From Thraustochytrium sp. TN22 (taxonomy: Eukaryota > Sar > Bigyra > Thraustochytrida > Thraustochytriidae): 64,000 nt of DNA. A program made the translations under genes and the position numbers. Under the pieces are notes generated by a model. That model did no database searches. It worked only from the letters and a program-made list of their open reading frames with translations, and was not told where the DNA came from. Below, in pieces: positions 3,722 through 62,354 of this stretch. The DNA lies in NCBI GenBank assembly GCA_013306675.1, contig JABLUY010000026.1, positions 62,001 to 126,000 of the forward strand, written 5' to 3'. Within the stretch, counting starts at the first letter, position 1. Every line of letters begins with the position of its first letter.

Positions 3722-3998
3722 ATGGAGGCGGGCGCGGGCGCGGCGGGCTCGGGCGCGGGCGCGGCGGCGGCAGCGGCGGCCGGCGGCGGCTCGACGGCGG
3801 CGGAGGAGCGCCTCGAGCTGCGGAAAGAGGGGAACGACGACGGCGAGGGAGACGACGACGGCGAGGGCGGCCTGCGCAAGACCTACGCGGAGGCCGCCGC
3901 CGGCGACGAGGACGCGGGCGGGAGAAATGGCGGGGCCGCAGAGGGCGAGCGGGAGGAGCTGCTGATCCAGCTGGAGGACGACAGCGAGGACGCCGTGC

Positions 3999-4034
<36 letters not shown>

Positions 4035-4508
4035 CGCACGCAGCCAAGGACCTCCAGGAGGAGCTGCAGCACAAGGCCGCCGGGCCCCTGCTCGAGCAGC
4101 TGGACGAGGACGAGCAGCAGGACATGACGGACGACGAGCTCGCGGGGTGGCCCGCGCAGGGCAGGCGCACGCGAACGGAGCAGGGCGCGGAGGCCGGCTC
4201 GGCGGTGGGCGCCGCAGAGGAGGTCGACCTGGCTCAAGGCCTGGTGACCATGCCGCTGGAGTCGCCACGCACCGCCGCATCGGCCGAGGCCGAGGACGCG
4301 GACGATGGCGAGGGCAGCCAGCCAGAGGCGCAAGATGTTGCGTCAGACACTGAGGTGATCCCTGGCTCTTTTCCTGCCCCATCCGAAGCGCTTGCCCCAG
4401 CGCACAACGATACACAACCTCCGTGCCTCGGGACTGAGTCCACCGCGGACCACGTCGTGCCGGACGACGACGAAGAGGATGACGAGAAAGAAGAGAAGAT
4501 GACGAAGG

Positions 4509-4550
<42 letters not shown>

Positions 4551-6364
4551 AAAAGCAGCAGGAGACGGAGGCGGCGGGGGCGGTGACGGAGGAGACAAAC
4601 GCGCAAGGATCGCCTGGTGCGCTCCGCGACGGCACGCCACCGTTTACGGGTGGCGACGTGCCCGTCGCTGCCACCTCCGGGGGAATCGACGCGCAGGACG
4701 TCCTTGCGCAGTCTGACCCTGCCTCGCCTGCGCCTGCGGGAAGGGACGACGCTCAAGCCTCTCTTGCGCAGCCTGATGACTCGCAGGCCGACGACGCACA
4801 AACCCTCCCTGCGCAATCGAATGCTTCGCCTGCGGTGAGCGGGAACCCTACCACGCAGCCTGCGGCCTCGCCCGCATCAGAAGCGGAGGCGGAGGAGCAG
4901 AACGAGGAGGACTTTGACGACGAGGCGGCATGGGCAGAGGCAGAGGCGCCCACGCCACCCCTCGGGGAGCCAGCCTCGTCCCTGCAGACGCCCGTGTCGG
5001 TGTCGGCGTCGGCGTCGGAGCGCGCGGGCGTGCCAACTGTGGAGGCGATGGCCGACAGCATGGAGGACCTGGCCGGCGCCGACAGCATCGAGGACCTTAC
5101 GGACGAAGTGGCCGCACAGGGCGGCGCGACGGCGTCCTTCTTCCAGTTTGACTCGGCCAAACCGTGGTACATGTTCGGGCGCGGCACGGTGGACACCTCA
5201 GGCGCGTCCGGCGCGCCGGCGTGGGAGCCAGACGCGTCCAAGTCGGAGTGCACGCTTTGTCACTCCAAGTTCGACTTCTTCCGCCGCCGGCACCACTGCC
5301 GCATGGACGGCAAGATCTACTGCAAGAACTGCTGCAGCCAATTCCGTCTGCTGCCGCCCGTCTTTGGCGTCCGCGAGCCGCAGCGCGTGTGCACCACGTG
5401 CTGCGCGAAGCTGGACCCGCTGCAGGACGAGCTGGCGGCCACCATGAGCAACGCCACGCGCGAGCTGGCCCAGCAACAACAGGAACAGGAGCAGGAACAG
5501 CAGCAGCGGTCGTTGGGAGAAGGCGGGTCGGCGCCGATGGGATCCCCGGGCGGCGCCTCGGCCGAGCGCGGCGGCGCCGGCGGCGGCCTGAACAGCGCTG
5601 CTGCGGCCGCGAGTGCCGCCGCCGCGCGCGCAGGCCTGTCGTCGCCGGTGAGCTTCTCCATGTCCGCGGAGATCCTCAAGGCCGCCAACGCCGTGGACAA
5701 CTTCTTCGGCACCTCCCCGCAGTCCATGCTGCGCGACGAGCGCATCCCAGCCATGCTGCTGCAGCAGGCCAAGGGTATCGCGTTTTTGACGGTGGTCAAG
5801 GTCGGCTTCGTCGTGACCACGCGCTTTGGCACCGGTCTGGTCGTGGGCCGCGACCGCCAGGGCTCCTGGACCGCACCCTCGGCCATTGGCCTGGCCGGCC
5901 TGGGCTGGGGCGCGCAAATGGGCGGCGAGGTCACGGACTTTGTCATCATCCTCAACACGGAGTCCGCCGTCGACGCCTTTAGTGGCCGCAGCCAGGTCGC
6001 GCTCGGCTCGCAGCTCAGCCTAGCCGCCGGTCCGCTCGGCCGCACCGGCGAGGCTTCGGTCAACCTCAGCATGGGCAGCGACGCACGCTTCGCGCCCTCT
6101 TACACCTACTCGCAGAGCAAGGGCCTCTTTGTCGGTATCAGCCTCGAGGGCGCCGTCATCCGCGAGCGCGCTGACGTGAACGAGCGCTTCTACGGCCGCC
6201 GTCACGATCCGCGCGACTTGCTCTCCTGCCGCGTGCCACGCCCCAAGGCCGCAGAGCCCCTCTACGCGGCTCTGCGCCGCGCCTGTGAGCGCGACCCAGC
6301 TGCCGCTGCCCGCGCCGCCTCGCCGGCCGGCGTTGCTCGCGGCCCGCTCGACGATGAGATCTGA
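3722..6364 (+). CDS. FYVE zinc finger plus SYLF lipid-binding domain protein
   Basis: An 880-residue intronless protein. Residues 1-490 are acidic low-complexity with a Gln tract at about 93-103 and a Glu-Gln tract near 265. A FYVE finger lies at about 500-573: the WEPD box, CTLC, RRRHHCR and RVCTTC are all present, so binding of phosphatidylinositol 3-phosphate on endosomes is expected. The fourth zinc ligand, normally Cys in 'HHCRxCG', is Asp (HHCRMDG). A SYLF (Ysc84) domain follows at about 673-826, starting near 'AKGIAFLTVVKVG' and containing 'GWGAQMGGEVTDFVIIL'; this family binds phosphoinositides and, in yeast and animals, actin regulators. FYVE-SYLF pairing is known in plants and stramenopiles. 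The likely role is membrane trafficking at PI3P compartments. It is convergent with the next gene. Confidence 0.9.
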
Positions 6365-13796: not shown

Positions 13797-16127
13797 TCAA
13801 GTCGATGTCGACGCGGACACAAATGCATGGGGCGCGAGGTCCGCGAGCATACTGGGGCGTATGCTTGTAATGTGACGTACCTTGCGCAGCAAGCGCGGCA
13901 TGACAATCCAGGCGGGCGGGACGCCGCAGTGCCTAAAAAAGGCGTCTGACTCTGAAATCTTCATCTTCTGGCCGTCGCGCACGCTTACGTAGTGCGTGCC
14001 ACTGTGAGCGAGCCGCGCCGCGCACAAGAAGAATGCCTTGCACACGCACCGCACTAGCGCGTCCGTATCCTCGCAGCACGAGAGCACCTGCAGCGCGCGA
14101 CTTCGGGCCAGGGCCTCGAGTCGCGTGGCCAAAGCCTTTCGTATCATCGCACAACGCTTCAGCGTCTGATGCTGGATGCCGAAATGCGCGCACCAGTCGC
14201 GCTGGCCGCCGGGCAACCCGACGCTCTCATTGTAGGCGTTAAACACATTCACATACATGACCAACTCTCCTTCGCGCGCGCCCAGCGCGCGGTAGCACTC
14301 TTCCATGCGCGCTGCCTGCCCCTTATTGCTGATGGTGCCGGTGAACAGCTGGCCGGTCTCTTGTGCCTCAAGCATCGCAGCCACGGTCAGCGCCTCCTCC
14401 GCGCAGCCCAGGTCCAGCGAGAGCACCAGGAGGCGCGCCAATGGCGGCGCTAGCGGCAGAAAGCACGCCATCTCGTGACCCATGGCCGTCAGTTCCGCCT
14501 GGTCGTCCACGGCCTCCAGCGCGTGCAGCGTGTCCAGGGCGCGCACCATGGCCACCGCCGGCGGCGGCGTCACGAACGGGAACCGCACTAGGTTTCGCAC
14601 GTGCAGACGCTTCAGCTGCAGGCAAACCGCTGCCAGGTCGCAGCGCGCGGCCTCGGGGCCCACCTCCTCGGGCAGCGAGGTGCTGCAGACGGCCTCTGGT
14701 GCAAGACGCAGCACAAGGTCCTTCGAAAAGCACGCACGCTGCCGCGCCTCCAGGCGCGTCACCGCTACCACGCCGCGCTCCTCCAGGCCGGTCTCCGCGT
14801 CCACCAGCGTGCGCTCCGTGAGGAGCGAGTCAATCACCACGCCCACGTCGTGCAGCGCCGCCGCCACTGACGTGCTCGACTCCAGCACAGAGTCCGCTAC
14901 AATGCAGTTGCGCCAGCCCGGCGCTGCGCGGCCCACCACAAACGGCAGGCTGCCCTGCGCCGCCGTCCACGTCAAGACGTTCAGGCTGCGGCAGCCCTCG
15001 CGATCGTGCAGCCTCTGGACGAGCTCTATCGCGATGCCCGCGGTCGGGACGAAGACCAGAATGTTGGCGTTCTCCGTCAGGTCGCGATCCGCGTGCAGCT
15101 GCGCGACGATATCGGCGCATTCGCGCAAGTAGTTCGAGGTCGGCACGCGCAGGTAAAGGATGCGCCGCGAGACACGCTCGCGCGGCGGCCGCACGTCCAC
15201 GAGCGCGCAGCGCGCGGCGCGCCCGCGGAAGAGACCCGCGGCCAGCTCCGCCGCCTTCTCCGTGCTCGCAAAGATCACCACGTGCAGGTCGCGGCGACTC
15301 AACACGATCTTGGCTAGGAGGCTCACAAGCATGTCGGTTTGCACAGTGCGCTGCTGGAAGTCGTCCACCACGATGAGCCCGAAGCGGGACAGCAGCGGGT
15401 CCTGGAGAACCTCCTGCACGAGCATGCAGTCGTGGAAGGTGGTCACCGGGCTCGCGGCGTTTTGCGAGAGACGCATCGCCTCGAAGCGCTCCACGTACCC
15501 GCCGCATCGCTCATCGCGCGCCAGGTTGCGCGCATGGTGCGGCACGGCCTCTGCACAGGCCATGCTGGGCGCCCCCCGCGGCACGCTGCGCAGCAACCTC
15601 CGGCACGCCGTCAGGCGCTCGCCGATCGCCACCGTCACCTGAATGCTCCGCGCCAGCTCCCAGACCTCCTCGGGCGACCTCCGCTCGGCCCTCGTCGCCA
15701 AGGCGTCCCTGTGGCACCTGCGCGACGCGTCGGCGTCCGCCTCTGCGTCGCCGACCTCGTCCCAGCGGCTGCCCAAGCCGCCTCTCCTCGCTCGTTTCCG
15801 GCGTTGCTCCTCGCGTCGCCGCTGCGCATCGTCCTGGTCGTCTTCGCTCTCGGACGAGCTCCTCCGCTCGTCGTCCTTGTGCTTGCGCTTGTGCTCCTTC
15901 TTCTCCTTCTTCTCCTTCTTCTTCTTCCTCCTCCTCTTCTTCTTCTCGTCCTTGTTCCCGTCCTTCTTCTTCGAGTTCTCCTCCTTTTTCTTCCTGTCTT
16001 TACCCTTCTTCTCCTTGCTCTCCTTGCGGGAGGCCGCCGGCGCGCGCGAGGGCTTGCGCTGGTCCGCGCCGTCGGGCCTGCGCAGCGCCAGCCCCAGGTT
16101 GCCGTCGCTGTCCTCGGGCAGCTCCAT
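13797..16127 (-). CDS. DEAH-box RNA helicase-like pseudoenzyme
   Basis: 776 residues from the ATG at 16127 (MELPEDSDGNLG). Residues ~35-95 are extremely Lys-rich, like N-termini of splicing DEAH helicases. The remainder aligns by eye with the DHX15/DHX16 core, but every catalytic motif is altered: the Walker A equivalent reads IGERLTACR (about 168-176) instead of GETGSGKT; the DEAH box reads VVDDFQQRT (about 253-261); motif VI reads RQRACFSKD (about 461-469) with no QRxGRxGR. The C-terminal ratchet/winged-helix region (about 530-610) and OB-fold (about 696-770, with 'FFLCAARL' and 'LADLAPHAF') are well kept. ATPase activity is therefore unlikely; a structural or RNA/G-patch-binding role is inferred. 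Stops of this gene and the ankyrin gene are 87 bp apart. Confidence 0.82.
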   Translation of the reverse strand: MELPEDSDGNLGLALRRPDGADQRKPSRAPAASRKESKEKKGKDRKKKEENSKKKDGNKDEKKKRRRKKKKEKKEKKEHKRKHKDDERRSSSESEDDQDDAQRRREEQRRKRARRGGLGSRWDEVGDAEADADASRRCHRDALATRAERRSPEEVWELARSIQVTVAIGERLTACRRLLRSVPRGAPSMACAEAVPHHARNLARDERCGGYVERFEAMRLSQNAASPVTTFHDCMLVQEVLQDPLLSRFGLIVVDDFQQRTVQTDMLVSLLAKIVLSRRDLHVVIFASTEKAAELAAGLFRGRAARCALVDVRPPRERVSRRILYLRVPTSNYLRECADIVAQLHADRDLTENANILVFVPTAGIAIELVQRLHDREGCRSLNVLTWTAAQGSLPFVVGRAAPGWRNCIVADSVLESSTSVAAALHDVGVVIDSLLTERTLVDAETGLEERGVVAVTRLEARQRACFSKDLVLRLAPEAVCSTSLPEEVGPEAARCDLAAVCLQLKRLHVRNLVRFPFVTPPPAVAMVRALDTLHALEAVDDQAELTAMGHEMACFLPLAPPLARLLVLSLDLGCAEEALTVAAMLEAQETGQLFTGTISNKGQAARMEECYRALGAREGELVMYVNVFNAYNESVGLPGGQRDWCAHFGIQHQTLKRCAMIRKALATRLEALARSRALQVLSCCEDTDALVRCVCKAFFLCAARLAHSGTHYVSVRDGQKMKISESDAFFRHCGVPPAWIVMPRLLRKVRHITSIRPSMLADLAPHAFVSASTST

Positions 16128-16343
16128 GGCGTCGGGCTGCGCGGCCACGAGGCAGCCTGAGCGGCGCGGATGCAGGTCTGCATGCGCCGGCTGCTGCTCG
16201 CGGGAGGGCTCGGAGCGCGCGGGGCGCGGCCGGCGGCCGGCCGGGTCCTGTGCGGCACTCCCTGCGGCGCGACGCTCCCTGCGCGGCCCTCGGAGCGCGC
16301 TCGGGGCGCGCTCCTGCGCGGCGAGGGGCCCGGGGCGCCAGCC
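16128..16343. promoter_or_regulatory. Compact divergent promoter region, possible leader-coding
   Basis: Only 216 bp separate the favoured ATGs of the pseudo-helicase (16127) and the TRM10-SDR gene (16344). If the in-frame upstream ATGs at 16170 or 16182 are used, the gap shrinks to about 42-54 bp and most of this segment encodes a leader. Both genes must share control sequences in or around it, or initiate inside each other's 5' regions. It contains a palindromic GGCCGG cluster near 16228-16245. Confidence 0.5.
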
Positions 16344-18212
16344 ATGGCGACCACTGGCGACGCGGACGCGGCGACGTCCTCGCGCGAAGCGAGGATCGAG
16401 CAGCGGCGCGAGGCGTACGAGGAGGCCCGCGTGGCCGTGGAGACGCGGCACAAGGAGATGCTCGAAGAGCTGGCCAAATCGGAGTCAAAGAAGGCCGTCA
16501 AGCGCAAGGTGGCCTCGCTCATACGCGCCGAGCTGGCCCAGCAGAAGAAGGCCGCGCAGCAGAAGAAGCGCCAGCGCGTGGAGGGAACCGGGGAGGCCGA
16601 GCACCAGGACGAGGGCAAGTCGCGCGACGGCAAGGCCTCGGGAGGCCAGAGCGAGCACCAATCCACGCGCCTCCTGCGGCGGCACGCCAGGACCGCCGTG
16701 CCGCAACTGGTTGCCGCGCACCCGCGCATCGTGATCGACATGGAGTTCGCGCAGTCGCTGCCGTTGAACGTGCGCAACAGCCTGTACCACCAGCTAAACA
16801 ACGTTTATGGCACAAACCGGCCAACGTGGCGGCCGAGCAAGGTCATGCTCGTGGGCATGACGCAGGAGCTGCAGAAGGAGCTCTCGGCGCGCCAGCCGGC
16901 CGAGATCTGGGAGGACCGCGGCGACCTGAGCGTCCATTCGGAGCCCTTCAACGAGGTGCTGACGCGCGAGGAGGCCGTGTACCTGTCGGCGGATGCCGAG
17001 GAGACGCTGACGACCTTTGACCCAGCCAAGGCATACATCATCGGCGGCATCGTGGACCGCAACAGCCAAAAGGGCGCCGCCCAGAACAAGGCGGCGGCGC
17101 TTGGCTACGCAACGGCCAAGCTGCCTATGGACGAGTACTTTGCGCGCAAGAATCGCACTGAAGGGAAGAAGGTGCTCACGGTAAATCAGGTGGGCGCCAT
17201 TGTGCGCGACTTTCGCGCAACCGGCTCCTGGGACTACGCGCTGGACCGCAACGCGCCACACCGCCTCAACGCCACGACCAAACTTGCCATGCGGGCCGCC
17301 AATCAGCCCACAAATGCGGTGCATGACAAGGACGGCAGCTGGTTTTACCCGGACAACAAGCCACGCGTGGCGCTTGTGGCCGGCGCCTCATCCGGCCTCG
17401 GCCTGGCTTGGGCACGTCGCCTGCGCGAGGAGGGCTGGTCGGTGATTATGGTGGCACGCGACGCCGCGCGCCTGGACGAGGCGGCCGCCGAGGTGCGCGC
17501 CGTGCAGCCACTGCGCAAGTCACGGGCCGCCGCGACCGTGGACCCGCTCGTGTGGACGACCGAGGCGGACTGCACGGACTGGGGCCAGGTGGCGCGCCTC
17601 GCGCTTGTCGTCACCGCAAACCTGGCGGGCTTGGACGGCCTGGTACTCGCAGCAGGCACCTTTCGGTGGGATACGGAGGAGGACCTGGTCCGGGACCCTG
17701 CGTTTTTGCAGACGCAGAACCTGCTCTCCAAGACGCTCGTGGCGCGCGGTCTGCTGCAGCTGCTAGATCCGCGCCTGCGGTACCGGCAGAATACTGAAGA
17801 GGTGCTCGCGACGCTGGCCAAGGGCGGCACGCCGGAGTTCACTCTGCCGGATCCCGAGGACGGCGACGGCGACGATAGCCAGGATGAGCCGAAATTTGTC
17901 GTGGTGCTAGGCTCTGACGCCGGCACGCCAGACTTTGCGGAGCGCGTGCAGGACGTGGAGGACGAGAAGGCGTATATCGCGGCGATGCGGGGCGTGCGGC
18001 TGTGGACGCACAAGCTCGCCACGGAGGTGAGTGAGCGCGCCAGGCACGTCCAGGTGGTCCTGGACGAGCCGCCGCTGGTGGACACGCCGCTTGCGCGCCG
18101 CGAATTTGCGCGTCTACCCGTGGACTGGTCGACTGTGCCCAAGCCGGCGGAGATCGTCGGCAAGGCCATGACGGCGCTGAGCAAGGTCTTTGGTGGCAGA
18201 GTAGAAAAATGA
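16344..18212 (+). CDS. TRM10 tRNA methyltransferase fused to short-chain dehydrogenase
   Basis: 622 residues from the ATG at 16344, or 680 from 16170 with an Arg-rich leader (MRRLLLAGGLGARGARPA...) that looks like a mitochondrial presequence. A basic coiled region (about 10-95) precedes a SPOUT-class TRM10 domain (about 129-310): 'IVIDMEFAQSLPLNVRNSLY', 'AYIIGGIVDRN' with Asp238 at the position of the catalytic Asp, and 'KVLTVNQV'. TRM10 enzymes make m1G or m1A at tRNA position 9. From about residue 341 an SDR (Rossmann) domain follows in the same frame: nucleotide motif GASSGLG (347-353), AAG, and a Ser-Asp-Ala-Gly turn, but the catalytic Tyr-x-x-x-Lys reads YIAAM (544-548), so the Lys is missing. 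In humans TRMT10C and HSD17B10 form a complex with the same two folds. No splice signals lie between the domains, so they appear to be one polypeptide. Confidence 0.88.
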   Translation: MATTGDADAATSSREARIEQRREAYEEARVAVETRHKEMLEELAKSESKKAVKRKVASLIRAELAQQKKAAQQKKRQRVEGTGEAEHQDEGKSRDGKASGGQSEHQSTRLLRRHARTAVPQLVAAHPRIVIDMEFAQSLPLNVRNSLYHQLNNVYGTNRPTWRPSKVMLVGMTQELQKELSARQPAEIWEDRGDLSVHSEPFNEVLTREEAVYLSADAEETLTTFDPAKAYIIGGIVDRNSQKGAAQNKAAALGYATAKLPMDEYFARKNRTEGKKVLTVNQVGAIVRDFRATGSWDYALDRNAPHRLNATTKLAMRAANQPTNAVHDKDGSWFYPDNKPRVALVAGASSGLGLAWARRLREEGWSVIMVARDAARLDEAAAEVRAVQPLRKSRAAATVDPLVWTTEADCTDWGQVARLALVVTANLAGLDGLVLAAGTFRWDTEEDLVRDPAFLQTQNLLSKTLVARGLLQLLDPRLRYRQNTEEVLATLAKGGTPEFTLPDPEDGDGDDSQDEPKFVVVLGSDAGTPDFAERVQDVEDEKAYIAAMRGVRLWTHKLATEVSERARHVQVVLDEPPLVDTPLARREFARLPVDWSTVPKPAEIVGKAMTALSKVFGGRVEK

Positions 18213-18603
18213 ATGAAGTGACGGAGGTGATGTGGAGGGAGGGGTGAAGAGGCCGGTAGGCTACAATTCGGCTGGCGCAGCTTTCACAGCTGGCTGGCGG
18301 AGCGTCGGGACTTTCTTTTCTCTAGCTTTGCGTCGCGTTGCATTGCATTGCGTTGCGTTGCGTTGCGTTGCGTTGCGTTGCGTTGCGTTGCGTTGCGTTG
18401 CGTTGCGTTGCGTTGCGTTGCGTTGCGTTGCGTTGCGTTGCGTTGCGTTGCGTTGCGTTGCGTTGCGTTGCGTTGCGTTGCTTTGCGTTGCGTTGCGTAG
18501 TGTTGCAATGTGTCTTGTCAATGTTCTTGTCGCGTGCAGTGAGTGCTCGTGACAGTTTGCCTGATAGGACGATTCTCTTGTGTCGTACACACGAAGAACA
18601 ATC
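18213..18603. other. Convergent 3' gap with GTTGC pentamer array
   Basis: The gap between two convergent stop codons. Apart from the pentamer array at 18328-18498 I see no gene or RNA structure; it should hold both polyadenylation regions. Confidence 0.5.
18328..18498. repeat. GTTGC pentamer array
   Basis: About 33 nearly perfect tandem GTTGC units, with a few GCATT and CTTTG variants at the edges. It lies between convergent genes. The reverse-strand frame reads a repeated Asn-Ala-Thr-Gln-Arg string only because of the pentamer; it is not a gene. Confidence 0.92.
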
Positions 18604-52970: not shown

Positions 52971-55900
52971 CTACACGGCGGTGAACGTTGTCCAAAGGCT
53001 GGCATAGCTTGCGTCCAGCAGCAACGGTGCATCGCCGGGCGCCGCGCCCAGAAAGACACACTTGCGCGTGTCCTGTGCAGCCTCCGCGTATGTGGAGGCG
53101 ACGGTCTGCGAGGCCTCGTCAACGCACAGGTAGCTCTCATCAGTAAAATAGACGTGCACCGCATCGGTCACGGTCTCGGACGCTGACGACACCTCCGCAA
53201 GAACGAACTCGCTGTACTGGTTCAGATAAACCACAAAGTGCGCGTCGCCCACGCGTGCCTCGAGCTGCCGGCTGACTGCGTTGAAGACGAAGAGCTGCGC
53301 GTCCGAGGTCTCGTCGCACATGTTAGACATGAGCTGGCCGCGGTATGGGTTCGCCTCCAGGCAAATGTATGAGCTCATGATGCGCAGCGAAAACCGCGTG
53401 CAATTGGTCTCGTAGCAACTTGCCACGGCTCCGCCCGCATCACCGCACGCGCAGCCCTCTGCGACAGCGGTCTCGTTCAGCGAGGGGAAGTTCGCGCCCA
53501 TCAGGCAATCGTCCGCATATGCGCTCGAGGCAACTGGCGTGACCTGGCTGTAAAAGAGCCCATTGTCAAAGTTGAGCACGTGCCGCCACCCTAGGCGAGG
53601 CGGGACCTCGCTGCCGCTGGACTCGACCTCCACGGTGGCGTAGTAGCCGTTCCCGGGGACCAGATCCCCGTCGAGGAACCATGCTCCCTCCGCTGCATCC
53701 CTGTACAGATGCACGCGCTCACTTTGGTCCAAAAACATGGTATCCAGCATCGTGTACCACACTGCCGCGTCCTGGGTCGATGACTGCTTTTGGTACACGA
53801 CATCCTCGCGCGTCGAGCTACTCGATCGGGCGCGCAGGCCGCCGCAGAGGTGGATCTGCGTGTGGAAGGTGCAGCGGATGCGGACTTCCTGCGTCGATGA
53901 CTGAATGTAGTCGATGTAGTACACTGCGTGACAGCTCGAGACGGACTCGCACTGCTCCATGCAGACCGAGGCGTCCAAGACGCCAGACTCCTCCGTCACG
54001 TCAATGTACCACACGTTGCGGCCCGTCGTTGGGTGCGGCACGTAGACTCGGCAGTCGTCCGTGTAGGCGATCTGGTAGCCCGGGTTGGCGCTGTAGCCGG
54101 ACGTCGCCGCATACCGCCGCACATAGATGCCATTGAGCGCCGGCGCTGTGACGCCATCCGAGCGGCTCGATACCGTGCGAAGACCGCTCAGACGCAGGTA
54201 AGAGCAGTCTCCGGTCGCCGGGCAGGTCTGCGACATGCCCAGCAGCTGGCCACGCCACTGGAAGTAGCGCGGCGCCGGGTACTCCTGGAGCTGGGGCGTG
54301 GCGGTGGTGGCATTGATGCAAAAGGCGCGGAAAAACGTCGATGAGGCAGATGCCACGCCCTCCTCGTACACATGGCCGTCCAGATAGTTCATCGTGTCGC
54401 TCGGGTCCGCGAGCTCCACTGTCTGAGCCAAACCAGACGACGTGTAGACCTGAATCGTGGCCGCCGAGGCCTCGAGCGGGCTCGCGCCGCTCTGCAGCGT
54501 CGCCAGCGCCTCCGCATCGGATGTGCTGTCGAGCAGCAGCGCGTAGAACGGGCGATAATCGATCGACGCATACGAGCTGCAGTGGTAGTCGGAGGAGCCA
54601 CATCGCGTGTTGGGCCCGCAGCATGGGGTCTCCAGCGCGCAGGTGGCCATGTCTCCGTCGTCCGTCAGATAGTCGGGTCGGTTGCAGTAGAGGTCCTCGC
54701 GTGTGCGGTTCGGCCAGTCGGCCTCGAGGAAAATGCGGTAGTCGATCGAGTACCGGCTCTTGCAGTACGCGTCCGTGGACCCGCAGTATCCTGAGGTGAT
54801 ATGGCAGCACGGCCGCAGCGCGCGCACTCCGTCGCCCCACGTGACGGCCACGGGAGGGCAACGGGCCGGCTCGCCGCTTGCCAGCGGGTAGTCCGGCCCG
54901 CAGCGGGCGTCGTCGCGGTGCATCTTATACGTGGAGGATGCCACGGGCTTGCTTCGGCTCAAAAAGAAGGAGTACAGCGTGGACCGTACCTCCTCGAAGT
55001 ACAGCACCTGCACCGCCTTGCCTGTGCGCGGCTGAAGGGCCTCGTCCACACGAAGCAGCTTGGCGCCGCCGCAGCTGCACGCGTCGTCCGCCAGCATCTT
55101 ACTGCTCACGCGGCAGGCGTCGCCGTCCGTGCTGGCGTTGAATTCCACGACCAGATCTACCTCCAACGAGTCGGCCTCCATCGCCACGATGAGCTCGCCG
55201 TCCGCCAACACGCGCGTCACCTCCACGTGCAGGTCCACGGCGGCATCGGCAACTGAGAAGGTGGCTATGCGCGCGTAGAACTCGCCGGCGCCCAGTACCT
55301 CCACGGTGTTGGCATCCAGCCCAAGCGCGGCCGCCGCAACGCCCGGCGCGTGTTCCAGAACCAGCGTATAGTCGCCGCTGGGCAACTCGGGCAGCTCGAA
55401 GGTCGCGTTGCGGATGACGACCGGGACGATCGAGTCGGACACGCTCGCCTCCACCGCGCACGAGGTGGTCCCAGCCTCGCTCACGCCTGCCAAGGACGCG
55501 TTCTGCCACTCCACCACATCGACATTTACATCGGCTGAGTAAAAGGGCACGACGTTCTCGTACGCCGGCACGGTGCCGCGGAAGAGCTTGAGCGAGGCCT
55601 CCACACCCAAGCCCACCTGGAGATCAGACACGGACCCGGCCACAGCGTAGGTGGCCACGATGGCGCTCTCGGACGCTGCACCGCCCGCGAGATTTACGCC
55701 GGTGCTCGGCACGCACATGCTAAATGAAAAGTCCGAGACGGTTGGCGTCTTGCGGCCCGTCACTCCGCAGTACGACTTGGCCCATTTCCACTGGTAGCTC
55801 TTAATGTACTCGGAGGTGCCCTGCTCCAAAGGTCGCGCATCGCGCGGAAAGCCGACGTCGTCGTCGTAGTTGGCGTAATTCCATCGGTTCGTCCCGTTTG

Positions 55901-58900
55901 CCATGTCCGCCTCGGTTGGGTACAATGCAAAGTTCGTGTTGATCAGATGCGCGCCGTCCAGGCTGGACCAGTCGTCCAGCATCATCGAGTAGGCGGAGAA
56001 GCCCTCGGGTACGTCTTCGTCCAGAAGCTCATAGTACAGGTATGGGTCACCGTCGATCTCATACCGCCAGGATCGGCTCAGTCCAAAGACCGCATCGATA
56101 ATCTGCTCGCCCAGATTGTACTTGACACGGCAGTCCTTTTGATGAAAGACCTGCGTCCATGATCCGTCAGGGCACGCGCTGAGTTCCGCGGAGTCCTCGC
56201 TGCCGTCAGACTCGTACTTGCACCACTCAGACGCCTCCTCGCAGGCGCCCTCGGTGCTGCAAATGGTCTCGAACATTGCGGAGAGGCCGACGATGTTGCT
56301 CACCAAGTCGTTCGGCACGCAACGAGCCGCGGTCTGCACGGTGGGCTGCGCTGTGGGCTGACGGCTGCAGTCGTAGCCTTCGTAGCCAGAGTTGCAATAG
56401 CACGCGCCCAGCACCGGGCAGCCGGCGCGCGCCTTGGTCGTCGCGTCGCAGCACACGCCGTTGCCCGAGCACAGTCGCGTGGCCGGGCAGACGTCGACCG
56501 TCGGACTGGATGCGCATGGCAGGCTCCGCAGGAGGGTGTCGTCGCCAAAGTCCACCTCCGCGAGCCCCCGCTGCACGGCCGTCACCTTTGCATCATAGCC
56601 CGTTGTGTAGATATTCTCAACGCGCACCTCAACCGTGTAGCGGCCGCCCATCTCGAGCAGCTCCGGAGGCTCGATCACGCTCAGCTCATTCCAGCACGCC
56701 AAGTTCGTGGCGCGCAGGCGCGTCACAAGCGGGTGCGTCGCCGTCGACGCCACCTGGAACTGCGGCGAGGTGGAGAGGCGGTCCAGCAGAAAGGCGTCGC
56801 TCAGGCCGGCGATGGAGATTCGCAGCGTCACCGTGAAGAGGGCGCCCTCGCTGGCTTCAACCTCCTCTACGACGCAAGAAGACGCTGCACTGAGAAGCGT
56901 GCCACAGCGGGCCTCTAGCAGCGACGCCTCCAGGTCGGCCCGGTCCACCGCGCTGCTGCAGTCCGCAAGGCTGGCCACCTCCAGCGTAAATGTCTCGGTC
57001 CACACGGCGCGGAAGTTGGAGAGGCCGGCGAAGCTAGTGTCGCCCGCCTGTGCGTGCGAGGTTGACTCGACCAGGTCCAGGAGTGCGTCGTATGTCTCCT
57101 CCAGCCAGTCGAACTTGCAGCTCTCAAAAGCGAACTCCGCCATGGGCTCGCGGTATGTGGTCGGCCGCATCGTTGGGTACAGGGTTGGCGCGTGGGAAGG
57201 CGCAGCGGTCGTCGGCTTTGGCGTCGGGGCGGCCGATGGCGCCTTCGTGGGACTCTCCGTGGGCAGCAGCGTTGGGTCGAGGGTAGGCGACATTGTTGGC
57301 GGCGTCGGCGCCTTGGTGGGAGCGCCCGTGGGGGACTCTGTGGGGGACTCCGTGGGCGGAGTCGGCGCATTGGTAGGCTCCTCCGTCGGTGCGTGCGTGG
57401 GAGCTTCCGTAGGCAGCTTGGTGGGCAGGTCGGTGGGCGCCTCCGTGGGCAGATTTGTAGGTGCATCTGTCGGGAGCTTCGTAGGGAGGTCCGTGGGTGA
57501 CGCCGTCGGCAGCTTGGTGGGCGCGTCTGTTGGCGCGTCCGTGGGCGCGTCCGTGGGCACTTGTGTGGGCAAGCGCGTGGGCGCGTCTGTGGGCGCGACG
57601 GTAGGCTCATCCGTGGGCGTGTCCGTCGGCAGCTGCGTGGGAAGCTCGGTCGGCAACCGCGTGGGTAGAAGCGTGGGCAGCTTGGTGGGTGAAAGCGTTG
57701 GCTCGTGCGTCGGAGAGGCCGTGGGCCGGCGCGTGGGCAGCGGCGTAGGATTGGGCGTGATGGTGTTGTCGCACGCGGCATACTCGAGGTGTTGCGCGCA
57801 GGAGCCCTCGCTCGAGATGCAGTAGCCCGTGACCGGGTTCTTGCAGAGCGTCTCGGCGCTTGCGAGATCTTCGGACGCGAAAGAGCGACAGCCGCAGGCC
57901 TGGAGTGGGGCCGTGGCCACGACGATGGCATCTAGTTCGTGCCTTGCGCCGGGCTCCACGTTGAAAGCGTGGCCCTGGCTCGTCATGTAGTAGTCGTGCG
58001 TCACCGAGAGGCCAAAGTGATACGCGAGGCCGGCATCCTCACGCGAGACGAACTCCGGGATGACCACCTGAAAGGCGCCCTCCGCGTCGGTAACGAGCAC
58101 CTGCGAGGTGCTTGCGGCTGAGTAGCCGACGCAGTCGGTGAGCGCGATGCCGTCGTTCTCCTGCCAGGCGCAGCACGAGGTGGAGCAGGACCCGTAAATG
58201 TCCGAGTACTGCGTGCAGTCGTCGGCGCAGGAGGCCGGCGCATCCGCGGCGGACGAGCACGTGCCGGCGCGGATGCTCCAAAGGCGCACGTAGGCACCCT
58301 CGACGGGCTCTCCCTCCGTGCCGATCACGGAGCCGGAGATGATGGTGCTGCTCGAGATGCGAAAGGTGGCGACGGAGAAACTGGCAAAGAGGAGCAAGAA
58401 GGACGCACAGTCGGTGCTGTCGGAGCGCTCGATGGTGATGCCGTTCTCCTGCGCCGGGACGCACTCGGCCGGGTAGATGCGCACGTCGGGCGCGTAGGAG
58501 CCGAAGACGCGCTTGACGACGAGCGTGGTGTCGTCGTCAAGCAGCGTGACGACGGCGCCATTCGCGGACTCCAGCGCAAAGGTGTTGCCCTCCTCGATCG
58601 TGAAGGTTGACACGAGCGGGCAAACAAGCGCCCACGGCTCGGTGAGCGAGTCTGAGGAGGCCTGTAGGCCCGAGACAACCGAGGAGGTCGGGGAAGAGGT
58701 GGCGAGGCGGCGCTGCCGCCGGACGGAGAGGCGGCGACGCCGGTCGGTGGGCTCCTCGACGGCGTCCTCGTCGACGTCCTCGTCGGAGGCATCCGCGGCG
58801 GCCTGAGACTGCGTGAGAGGCGTGGAGATCTGCGTGAAAATGGTGGCGAGCGAGGTGCCGGCATAAAAGATGGCCGAGGAGTCGGTCTCCACAGAAAGCG

Positions 58901-59498
58901 TGAGCGTGCTCTGGCACGTGTTGAGCGCGGGCAGGTAGAAGTCATCGAGTGCGTCGGTGAGGTTGAGCTCCTCGGCGGCAGCCAGCACGATGGCGTACTC
59001 CTCGGCGGTCCAGCAGAAGGCGTCGTCGCCGCAGTCCGAGGTCTGCGAGCAGCCATCGCCAAGGTCGCAGCGCAGGGCGCATCGCGAGCCGCCACAGTCC
59101 ACGTCTGTCTCATCGCCGTCCGCGATGCCGTTCAAGCAGGAAGCGCAGGTTGCATTGACGCAAAGGTTGCTGTCACAGTCCGCATTGGCGCTGCAAGCGA
59201 GGCCATCGGCACAGAGGAGGCCGAGCGTGGCGCAGAGGTCGCCGCCACAGTCGACGTCGGTCTCGTGCGCGCTGAGTTCGCCGTCGGAGCATTCGATCGC
59301 GATGTAGGTGTACGCCGGGGCGCTGCCTAGCAGCGCCTCGTCAACGCCTTCTTCGTCGCTCGAGGCCGCCACGTAGACCGTCTCGCAGACGCCGAGCGAG
59401 CAGAAGCCGCTCGCGCAATCCGTCGTGCAGCGCTGCGTCTGACAGTCGTACATTTGCTCGCAGCCTTCGCCAACCGGGCAGCGGCGTGAGCAGACACG

Positions 59499-59530
<32 letters not shown>

Positions 59531-61802
59531 CGCGCACGCCGTTGGCGCATGAGACGCAGACGCCCAGCGTGGCGTGGCAGACGCCGCTGGCGCACTGCGA
59601 GGCCTTGGTGCAGGTGGCCCCGTCCAGGCAGCGGCCGTCGGCGCCGGCCGTGGCGCTGGCGCCTGCGGCCGACACGTTGGCGGGGCTGTCGTACGGGTAC
59701 GCCCTGTAGTAGTCGATGCACTGCGGCGAGCCGCAGTCGACGTCGCCCTCGTCGCCATTGAGCACGCCGTCCTGGCAGCTGATACACACGCCATTGGCGC
59801 AGCGTTGCGAGAGACAATCCGCGTTCACCGTGCACGCCGCGCCGACGGCGCAGAGGAAGGCGTTGTCAACGTCGCCCTCGGCCGTTTCGTTCTGCAGAAG
59901 CTCCTGCAGGTACGCGCGACACCGACCGCCGCCGCAGTCCACGGCGGTCTCGGCGCCGTCGCGCACGCCGTTGGAGCACTGCTCCCAGAAGGTCTCCTTG
60001 CGGCACAGGCTCGTCGTGGTGTCACAGTGGCCCGAGAGGCAGTCCGAGTCCTGTGAGCAGCCGCGGCCGAGCGAACAGCGCGCCGAGCAACCCCCCAGGG
60101 CCGTGCCGCCGCCACAGTCTACGTCCGTCTCGTTGCGGTCCCGCACGCCATTTGCACAGCTTTGGACGTCGGTTGTGGCCACCGAACTGATACGGTTCGT
60201 GGCGTAGGTATCGCGATCGAGCTGTGCAACGACCTCCGTGCTCGAGATGCGCTGCGAGTTGGTAGAGATGGAGGTGGCTAGCACGGCAATCGCGGCGAGG
60301 AGCAGCAAGGCCAAGAGGGCGACGAGGCCGCGCGCGCGGTTCCGGCTGAGGGTCTTCACGCGCTCCGTCTGCGCGTGCCGGTTGCGTATGAGCCAGATGT
60401 CGGACCGCAGCGCGATGGCCAGGCAGAGCACGAGCATGAGGATGCCGAGCGCGAGGAGCGACATGAGCTGATTGATGCTGGTGGCCAGCATCTGGCAGCA
60501 GGCCGTGTTCAGACAGGCCTCTGGGTTTGCCGCGGTCCCGTTGCCGCCGGGCTCGTAGAACTCCCACGCGAAGGCGACCTGGGACTTGTCCGGGCAGACT
60601 GCGGCATCGCCCACGCCCGTACTTGAGTACTGATATTGCTGCGTTGTGGCGTTGTACACCTCCACTTGCGCGCCAATGACGGCACCGCCGTACTTGGCAC
60701 ACGCCACAGTGGCGTCCCACCACTCGTAGGACATCACCTGGAGTACGGAGCGGCACGAGCCTAGGATGGCAGACTCCACGTCCGCGACGAGTAGGCCGAT
60801 GAGCACGCCAGAGGTGCTGACCAGCAGCGTCGCCATGAGCACAGCGTGGGTCTTGAGCAGCGCAAGGTGCTCGATCATGGCCGCGCCGAAGCCCAACACG
60901 CTGACGAGGATCAGCAGTAGGCAGAGCGCCAGCAAAAGGTAGACGGCGTTCAGCACGACAGCGCTATTGACCGTCTCGTCGTCCAGGGCCTGCGCATAGT
61001 CGAGCAGCGAGATGCTCATGCGCACGCCAATAATGCCAAGCACCATGAGGATGAGCGCGAAGCTCTCCAGGAAGCTCTGCGCCATCTCGTAGACCGTGAC
61101 GATCATGATGGTGGGCCGGAGCGAGGCGAGCGTTAGCAGACAGACGACCAGGCTCAGTCCGGCCGACGCACGTGCATAGTACTCCGTGTTGCCGTAGATG
61201 CCGTAGTTGAGCACCGAGTTTGAATCTGCTAGCGTGCTCAGGCTGATGGGTACCAACGCAAGGCAGATGGTGAAGGCCAGGTGAAAGTATATTTGCAAGA
61301 GGTGCTGGCCCGGCGTCTCAATGCCGTCGTCGTCCACCTCAAGATCCTCGCGCACGCGCTGCGCGCCGTACACGCCGAAGCAGGACGCCACTAGCACCAG
61401 AGACCCACAGATGATCATGACTTTGCCCACGGGCGATGAGGTCTCCTCGTCCAGGCTCGCTGTCTCGCACGCCTGGCCCAAGAGAATCAATGCGACGGAG
61501 AGCGCCGCCGCAACCACCAGCATCGACACCAGGTTCGAGTGCGTCCACTGCTCTTGCACATGCTTGCGCGCTTGCACGCGCGGTGTCGACCCCTTGAGCA
61601 GCACGTCCCGGAACTCGCGCTGCGCAGCGCTCAGTCTTCGCGCTGAGCCGCGCGTGGCCGCGGGCGCTGCATTCATGCCCTTGAGGAAGTCATCCACGGC
61701 CGCATCGTCCACCTCGCTCGTGTCCGTGTCGCAGCGCCGCGTCGCCAGCACCACCTTGGCCTGCTTCGCCTCGACGTTCGCGCTCGGGACCACCTTCGCC
61801 AT
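52971..61802 (-). CDS. Giant polytopic surface protein with Cys repeats, Pro-Thr stalk and lectin-like modules
   Basis: 2943 residues, one uninterrupted 8.8-kb frame from the ATG at 61802 (MAKVVPSANVEAKQ); the frame is open to 62111 but that part is low-complexity. About nine hydrophobic spans lie between residues 90 and 512, so the N-terminal sixth is a membrane domain. The rest is probably extracellular. Six Cys repeats with the signature 'NGVRDGxETDVDCGG' cover about 545-939. A carboxypeptidase-regulatory-like fold is near 1150-1250. A Pro-Thr stalk of PTxAPT/PTxLPT units spans about 1347-1550. An EGF-like 'CNSGYEGYDCS' is near 1803. Two hevein-like chitin-binding modules ('CCHITSGYCGSTDAYCKS', 'CCGPNTRCGSSDYHCSS') lie near 2330-2420, a PAN/apple-like module near 2600-2645 and a ricin-type trefoil-like region ('SYICLEANPYRGQLMSNMCD') near 2805-2830. 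An adhesion or cell-wall role is inferred. Confidence 0.85.
57150..57760 (-). repeat. Pro-Thr stalk-encoding repeat inside the giant gene
   Basis: On the coding strand the DNA repeats nine- and twelve-base units encoding PT-x-A/L-PT. It forms roughly 200 residues with no Cys, typical of mucin-like O-glycosylated stalks in stramenopile wall and surface proteins. Confidence 0.9.
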
Positions 61803-62354
61803 GCTGCTGCTGCTGCTGCTGCCGCTGCCGCTGCTGCAGGAGCCGCCGTGCGGGCGCTTGCCGCGCCGCGCCGCGCCGCGCCGCACCGCACCGCGCCGCG
61901 CCCGCGCCGCGCCGCGCCGCGCCGGCAGCCCAGCGCCCCGAGGCTTTTCAAAATTGCAACCTTCGCCGCAACGGTCTGCGGGCGTCCCACTTTTGTGCGT
62001 GCGTGGTGCGCGTCCCAGCGCAAGCAACTGCGAGGCGGCAAGGCTCCACGAGCTGACGAACTGCATGAGCGCGCGAGATTCTTCTCGAGATCGCGAGCAA
62101 GGGGCGAGCAAACGCAGGCAGATGCGCGTGGCGAAATTTGTGTGCGCACCTTGACCCTCTCACGCCGCCCATGTCGATGCAAAAGTAGGCGTGCGCTTTG
62201 CGGGTGACGAGGAGTGCACAGAGCGATCGATGCACGGCAGCGAGGCGCTCTGTGCCGCGAGAGGCGTTCTATCGCGCTCGCACGGAAGATCTATCAAATG
62301 AGCTCACTGTCGACCACTGTCAAGCGTTTCGCCTGACACACTGCGAGAGCTGCT
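61803..62354. other. Upstream region of the giant gene
   Basis: About 550 bp between the giant gene's ATG and the next minus-strand gene. A CGCGC/CGCAC pentamer-like tract (about 61858-61923) lies just upstream of the ATG. No promoter motif or gene was recognised. Confidence 0.4.

Follow-up and report, generated by a model that had tools for sequence, protein, structure and literature searches.

The locus described here raises the question of whether a TRM10 tRNA methyltransferase and an SDR encoded in one reading frame of Thraustochytrium sp. TN22 form a natural single-chain version of the animal TRMT10C-SDR5C1 (MRPP1-MRPP2) complex, or whether TRM10 recruited an SDR independently. Both readings were offered in a preliminary description of a 64,000-nucleotide stretch of this genome, to which we refer as the window. 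The assembly around it comprises 37.9 Mb in 453 contigs, and all genome-wide counts below refer to this one genome.

One reading frame encodes a TRM10 and an SDR domain

The open reading frame lies on the plus strand and can start at an ATG at 16170 (680 aa) or at 16344 (622 aa), with a shared stop at 18212 (Table 1). A Pfam search, proposed in the preliminary description, places tRNA_m1G_MT at residues 203-365 of the 680-aa form (E 3.7e-17; 63.1 bits, cut-off 27.3) and adh_short at residues 399-500 (E 4.9e-15; 56 bits, cut-off 26.6), which leaves a gap of 33 residues between the two domains. As the window holds 42 open reading frames of at least 300 aa, an open frame by itself is weak evidence, and codon usage was therefore scored using six other reading frames of the window for training. 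Of the six possible frames of this locus, the fusion frame scored highest in all 33 scoring windows, the first of which tied with one minus-strand frame to rounding. The succession of a TRM10 SPOUT domain and an SDR in one frame was thus borne out, with both domains above their Pfam cut-offs and a continuous codon score.

Table 1 Positions of the fusion gene and its parts, numbered from the first letter of the window.
Feature	Position	Strand	Basis
Gene of the TRM10-SDR fusion, 622 aa, from its most probable start	16344..18212	+	Reading frame, Pfam, ATG context, codon score
Upstream in-frame leader, basic, 58 aa; possible extension of the N-terminus, probably non-coding	16170..16343	+	Codon score about zero; base shuffles
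Charged N-terminal region preceding the SPOUT domain	16344..16679	+	Translation
TRM10 SPOUT methyltransferase domain, PF01746	16776..17264	+	Pfam; recovered at the same place genome-wide
IVDRN, aligned to IVDKN of Trm10 4jwf	17049..17063	+	Alignment
Inter-domain linker	17265..17357	+	Free of stops and of spanning GTRAG/YAG pairs
SDR-like domain, 284 aa	17358..18209	+	adh_short E 1.2e-16 in a scan of this part by itself
Cofactor-loop motif AGASSGLG (TGxxxGxG with T to A)	17379..17402	+	Alignment
Insert of about 36 residues relative to SDRs of the same genome, acidic at its end	17781..17888	+	Alignment
YIAAM in the YxxxK position, catalytic Lys to Met	17973..17987	+	Alignment to 5h5x; SDRs of the same genome

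We favour the ATG at 16344 as the start, because the codon score is close to zero upstream (−0.02 and 0.05 in the scoring windows starting at 16170 and 16230) and rises near 16344, where the context is agccATGg. The basic leader encoded from 16170 was dropped as a sign of a mitochondrial presequence, as 2072 of 5000 base shuffles were open and equally or more basic; in this base-shuffle test of the upstream leader, mitochondrial targeting of the fusion did not rise above chance. Its helical moments, computed with no null model, were given no weight. Weak alignments to full-length Trm10 4jwh, from query position 68, and to TRMT10C, from query position 38, extend over part of the N-terminal region of the protein.

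The divergent neighbour of the fusion gene is a relative of DEAH-type helicases (13797-16451, minus strand; start probably near 16127, as judged by eye), whose sole Pfam matches are HA2_N and HA2_C. Its core looks degenerate, with VVDDFQQR at the DEAH position and no GxGKT discernible by eye. Downstream of the fusion stop, a long, near-perfect GCGTT pentanucleotide array occupies 18335-18498. Elsewhere, one open reading frame (3722-6364, plus strand) combines a FYVE zinc finger with a following Ysc84 (SYLF) domain, and a putatively coding 3046-aa frame (52971-62111, minus strand) has PT repeats as its sole Pfam match. In the wider genome, a PfaA-type PUFA synthase frame of 3044 aa reaches 2539.7 bits together with its neighbours (cut-off 1010.1), and a second matching frame runs the opposite way; such an opposed gene pair is familiar from labyrinthulomycetes (thraustochytrids). 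A triosephosphate isomerase with a GAPDH part is known from stramenopiles; two triosephosphate isomerase genes were seen here (L029 and L030), and the frame of L030 lacks the GAPDH part by eye. Another thraustochytrid genome, described in excerpts of PMC7073664 as 62 Mb in size with 45% GC, is unlike the present one.

The TRM10 half resembles TRMT10A and yeast-type Trm10

A search of all 37.9 Mb yielded a single TRM10 place (one candidate, one scored). Among solved structures, the TRM10 half matched 4fmw best (79.1 bits, E 2.5e-21), followed by 4jwf (78.9), 4jwh (78.3), 9xzq (62.5), 4jwj (58.1) and the TRMT10C chains (51.9-53.1 bits). Entry 4fmw is TRMT10A under an older name. The fusion shares the SPOUT TRM10 domain with these TRMT10A and yeast-type Trm10 proteins at 78-79 bits. 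It is 34% identical to Trm10 4jwf, with the core motifs YLSAD, YIIGxIVDxN, QNKA, TAKLPxDEY and LTVNQV in common; the Asp of IVDRN/IVDKN is presumably catalytic. TRMT10C is not the closest of the solved TRM10 proteins, yet the Trm10 chain 4jwj scores close to it. By bit scores alone, and by a modest margin, the TRM10 half thus appears nearer to TRMT10A and some Trm10 proteins than to TRMT10C.

Because the TRM10 core is intact and a single TRM10 place was found, this half would be expected to carry out ordinary position-9 tRNA methylation, most likely in the cytosol, and may act as an m1G9, possibly m1A9, methyltransferase. The protein differs from TRMT10A and the yeast-type Trm10 proteins at its C-terminus. 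Excerpts of PMC9508554 give Trm10 C-terminal extensions of about 8-60 aa and, for SPOUT enzymes generally, extensions of up to more than 1000 aa; in the fusion, about 315 residues, including the SDR, follow the Pfam domain.

The SDR half lacks the catalytic lysine

Many SDRs of the PDB match the second half weakly, chiefly across its first 50 residues, and none of the best 25 NCBIfam models reached its cut-off. The fused SDR was aligned with 22 SDR loci of the same genome, of which the fragment L005 was left out of the counts (n = 21). These 21 are the best-scoring and nearest SDRs and are hence enriched in intact enzymes; the PF00106 genome search behind them scored 19 of 103 candidates. Like classical SDRs (PF00106), the fused domain retains the three glycines of the Rossmann loop, the helix-4 Asn, the Ser and the Tyr. 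Of the N-S-Y-K tetrad it thus has N, S and Y; unlike classical SDRs, it carries Met at the position of the catalytic Lys, which is K in 20 of the 21 genomic SDRs and R in the remaining one. The preliminary description makes no mention of this replacement.

Other substitutions probably say less, because the same positions vary in some SDRs of this genome: the T of TGxxxGxG is replaced by A (T in 19/21), NNAG reads LAAG (first N in 17/21, second N in 15/21) and PG reads PP (G in 18/21). The fused SDR also terminates shortly past its last helix, in which it again departs from classical SDRs. A missing C-terminal DGG strand was dropped as a sign of decay; L003, L004, L011, L016, L019 and L020, which have YxxxK, likewise lack DGG by eye. 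A genome search with the fused SDR returned only the domain itself and L003, L004 and L005 (30 of 30 candidates scored), and none of these three other loci is of the HSD17B10 type. The nearest, L003 on contig C307 (34% over 175 aa), differs in having an intact YxxxK (YANSK), and no TRM10 place lies at its locus. At another locus, L009 (C419:87401-87964), an SDR domain follows a carrier-protein-like and reductase-like region by eye in a 1302-aa frame.

In SDRs, the catalytic Lys lowers the pKa of the Tyr and holds the nicotinamide ribose. Since this Lys is missing, no dehydrogenation is expected from the fused SDR, and cofactor binding would be possible; as the Ser and Tyr of the tetrad remain, residual or altered chemistry may persist. 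The domain is probably inactive and perhaps binds NAD(P).

These features bear on two other explanations. The first is a recent neutral fusion, in which the SDR is a decaying passenger without a role. The lost Lys and the altered NNAG and PG would fit it, and the fused SDR may indeed be drifting; the open frame and the codon bias over 284 codons, read in one species, and the retained glycines of the Rossmann loop speak against it. We regard neutral decay as unlikely and as the strongest rival, because the comparison is confined to one species. The second is a bifunctional enzyme whose active oxidoreductase would tie the redox state to tRNA methylation. The glycine motif, Asn, Ser and Tyr are those of such an enzyme, but with Met in a position where the genomic SDRs have Lys or, once, Arg, there is little to recommend it.

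The junction is consistent with a single protein

The two halves might also not be one protein in life, through an assembly join or an error of the gene model that hides two genes or splicing between the domains. A single assembly is available, and 92 GT..AG pairs touch the junction. Against this, the linker contains no stop, the coding score is positive throughout (0.16-0.26 bits per codon in the junction-covering scoring windows, starts 17190-17370), and none of the 92 pairs joins a GTRAG donor to a YAG acceptor across the junction. The frame had been called free of splice signals, which held for GTRAG/YAG pairs across the junction; the sole GTRAG of the reading frame (GTGAG) lies at 18027, within the SDR part. 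We consider two separate products quite improbable, and at the level of sequence a single frame with a TRM10 and an SDR domain is confirmed.

The fused SDR appears distinct from the partner of animal TRMT10C

In both the fusion and the animal complex, a TRM10 protein is physically joined to an SDR, and excerpts of PMC10941002 state that the dehydrogenase activity of SDR5C1 is dispensable in the latter. The same excerpts, from a 2024 review, describe TRMT10C as metazoan and as the sole TRM10 known to need a partner, and the role of SDR5C1 as elusive. The fusion and the animal complex differ in build: TRMT10C-SDR5C1 consists of two chains with an HSD17B10 tetramer, whereas the fusion is one chain with another SDR, devoid of the catalytic Lys, at its C-terminus. 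In the human mitochondrial RNase P, residues 183-202 of TRMT10C, which precede the methyltransferase domain, form a helix that inserts into the SDR5C1 tetramer (excerpts of PMC8437803). The order in the fusion, with the SDR C-terminal to the methyltransferase, is opposite to this anchoring.

HSD17B10-type genes are encoded separately. L023/L045 (C46:84114-84890) matches the 1so8 group, including the SDR chains of 7onu, with E 4.1e-74 over residues 4-253 of 259 and carries YSASK at YxxxK. A second gene, L046, shares 49% identity with L023; its motif reads YAASK and its C-terminus RMQP. The C-terminus of L023/L045, SSKI, is a possible peroxisomal PTS1 signal; L046 lacks it. With L023 as query and all 67 of 67 candidates scored, the genome gave 46 places at E ≤ 0.001, and the fusion locus was not among them. 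In a small set, the fused SDR aligned to L023 with 27% identity over 100 aa (E 0.002) and to L046 with 40% over 42 aa (E 0.007). By these comparisons, the fused SDR does not appear to be of the HSD17B10 type.

The genome encodes one PRORP above cut-off (L006, PF16953 E 6.1e-24). PRORP2 is its nearest PDB entry (E 6.8e-20), whereas matches to human MRPP3 do not go beyond 2.6e-8, and its N-terminus is basic, as judged with no null model. L007 (C177:133020-133160), NYN-nuclease-like with a KH-like stretch by eye, matched the PRORP profile weakly and was rejected as a second PRORP (19.6 bits, cut-off 39.1). Rpp30 is present (E 7.9e-17) and Pop1 is weakly matched (E 6.3e-4), for both of which RNase MRP would equally account. 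The 15 of 884 candidates scored gave no match to the nuclear RNase P RNA RF00009, with controls that included no eukaryote. A 22-kb contig carries cox1 and mitochondrial-type tRNAs; of 17 Rfam matches, two cut by the end of the stretch were left out, and in 14 of the 15 complete tRNAs position 9 is a purine, which is A in 10 of these. A purine at this position is usual in tRNAs, and it was dropped as a discriminator between the readings for want of discriminating power. According to excerpts of PMC10941002, stramenopile PRORPs appear to have displaced the RNP RNase P in all compartments, and whether a PRORP needs partners cannot be told from its sequence, so that L006 neither supports nor rules out a platform role of the fusion.

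The least probable reading, that of a single-chain TRMT10C-SDR5C1 equivalent serving as a mitochondrial platform for PRORP, can point to L006 with its basic N-terminus, to the position-9 purines and to the fit of an inactive SDR with the dispensable activity in the human complex, but faces two separate HSD17B10-type genes, a fused SDR outside the 46 places and with Met for Lys, a C-terminal SDR where the human anchor helix is N-terminal, TRM10 scores of 79 bits for TRMT10A against 53 for TRMT10C, mitochondrial targeting no better than chance, a PRORP closer to PRORP2 than to MRPP3, and m1R9, which according to excerpts of PMC10941002 has been found in the mitochondrial tRNAs of metazoans only. 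We therefore reject the proposed single-chain MRPP1-MRPP2; because the SDR is not HSD17B10-like and follows the methyltransferase, the fusion is unlikely to copy the animal complex directly. That TRM10 recruited an SDR independently, the reading proposed alongside it, is supported by the sequences, from which its function is inferred.

A proposed accessory role for the SDR behind a probably ordinary TRM10

On balance, and with moderate confidence, we favour an ordinary, probably active TRM10 of cytosolic type that is joined in one protein to a C-terminal SDR devoid of dehydrogenase chemistry and with an accessory role. An SDR gene would have become joined behind the TRM10 gene, and the captured SDR would then have lost its catalytic Lys and retained the Rossmann cofactor loop. 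It may now serve as a rigid scaffold, a dimerisation surface or an NAD(P)H-occupied platform that helps to place the tRNA beside the SPOUT domain.

No TRM10-SDR fusion was found in the open papers searched, and an uncommented database entry for one may well exist. In a 2007 survey (excerpts of PMC1829167), the SPOUT fusions listed involve nucleic-acid-binding or hydrolase domains, and its main text contains the word 'dehydrogenase' 0 times. Searches of viral contigs with the whole fusion protein and with a two-sequence TRM10 alignment gave no relative, prokaryote genome contigs gave no fusion and two matches, both confined to the beginning of the SDR, and tblastn with the SDR half gave none in phages and plasmids. 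Since prokaryotes, viruses and plasmids make up these collections, such negative results are hardly informative for eukaryotes.

A bolder version of the favoured account, which we hold to be rather doubtful, is that outside animals an SDR convergently became the obligatory pseudo-enzyme platform of a TRM10 within a single chain, and that its Rossmann domain, occupied by NAD(P)H, positions the tRNA for methylation and perhaps for PRORP. The fused SDR may still work in analogy to the animal complex, as an inactive scaffold. If this convergent reading were true, the fusion would represent a second origin of the TRM10-SDR partnership. Why animal TRMT10C requires an SDR is an open question (excerpts of PMC10941002). 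If independent, the pairing of TRM10 with an SDR that lacks the catalytic Lys would allow a natural test: SDR folds may give TRM10 something general, such as contacts to the tRNA or a scaffold, or their recruitment may have been neutral.
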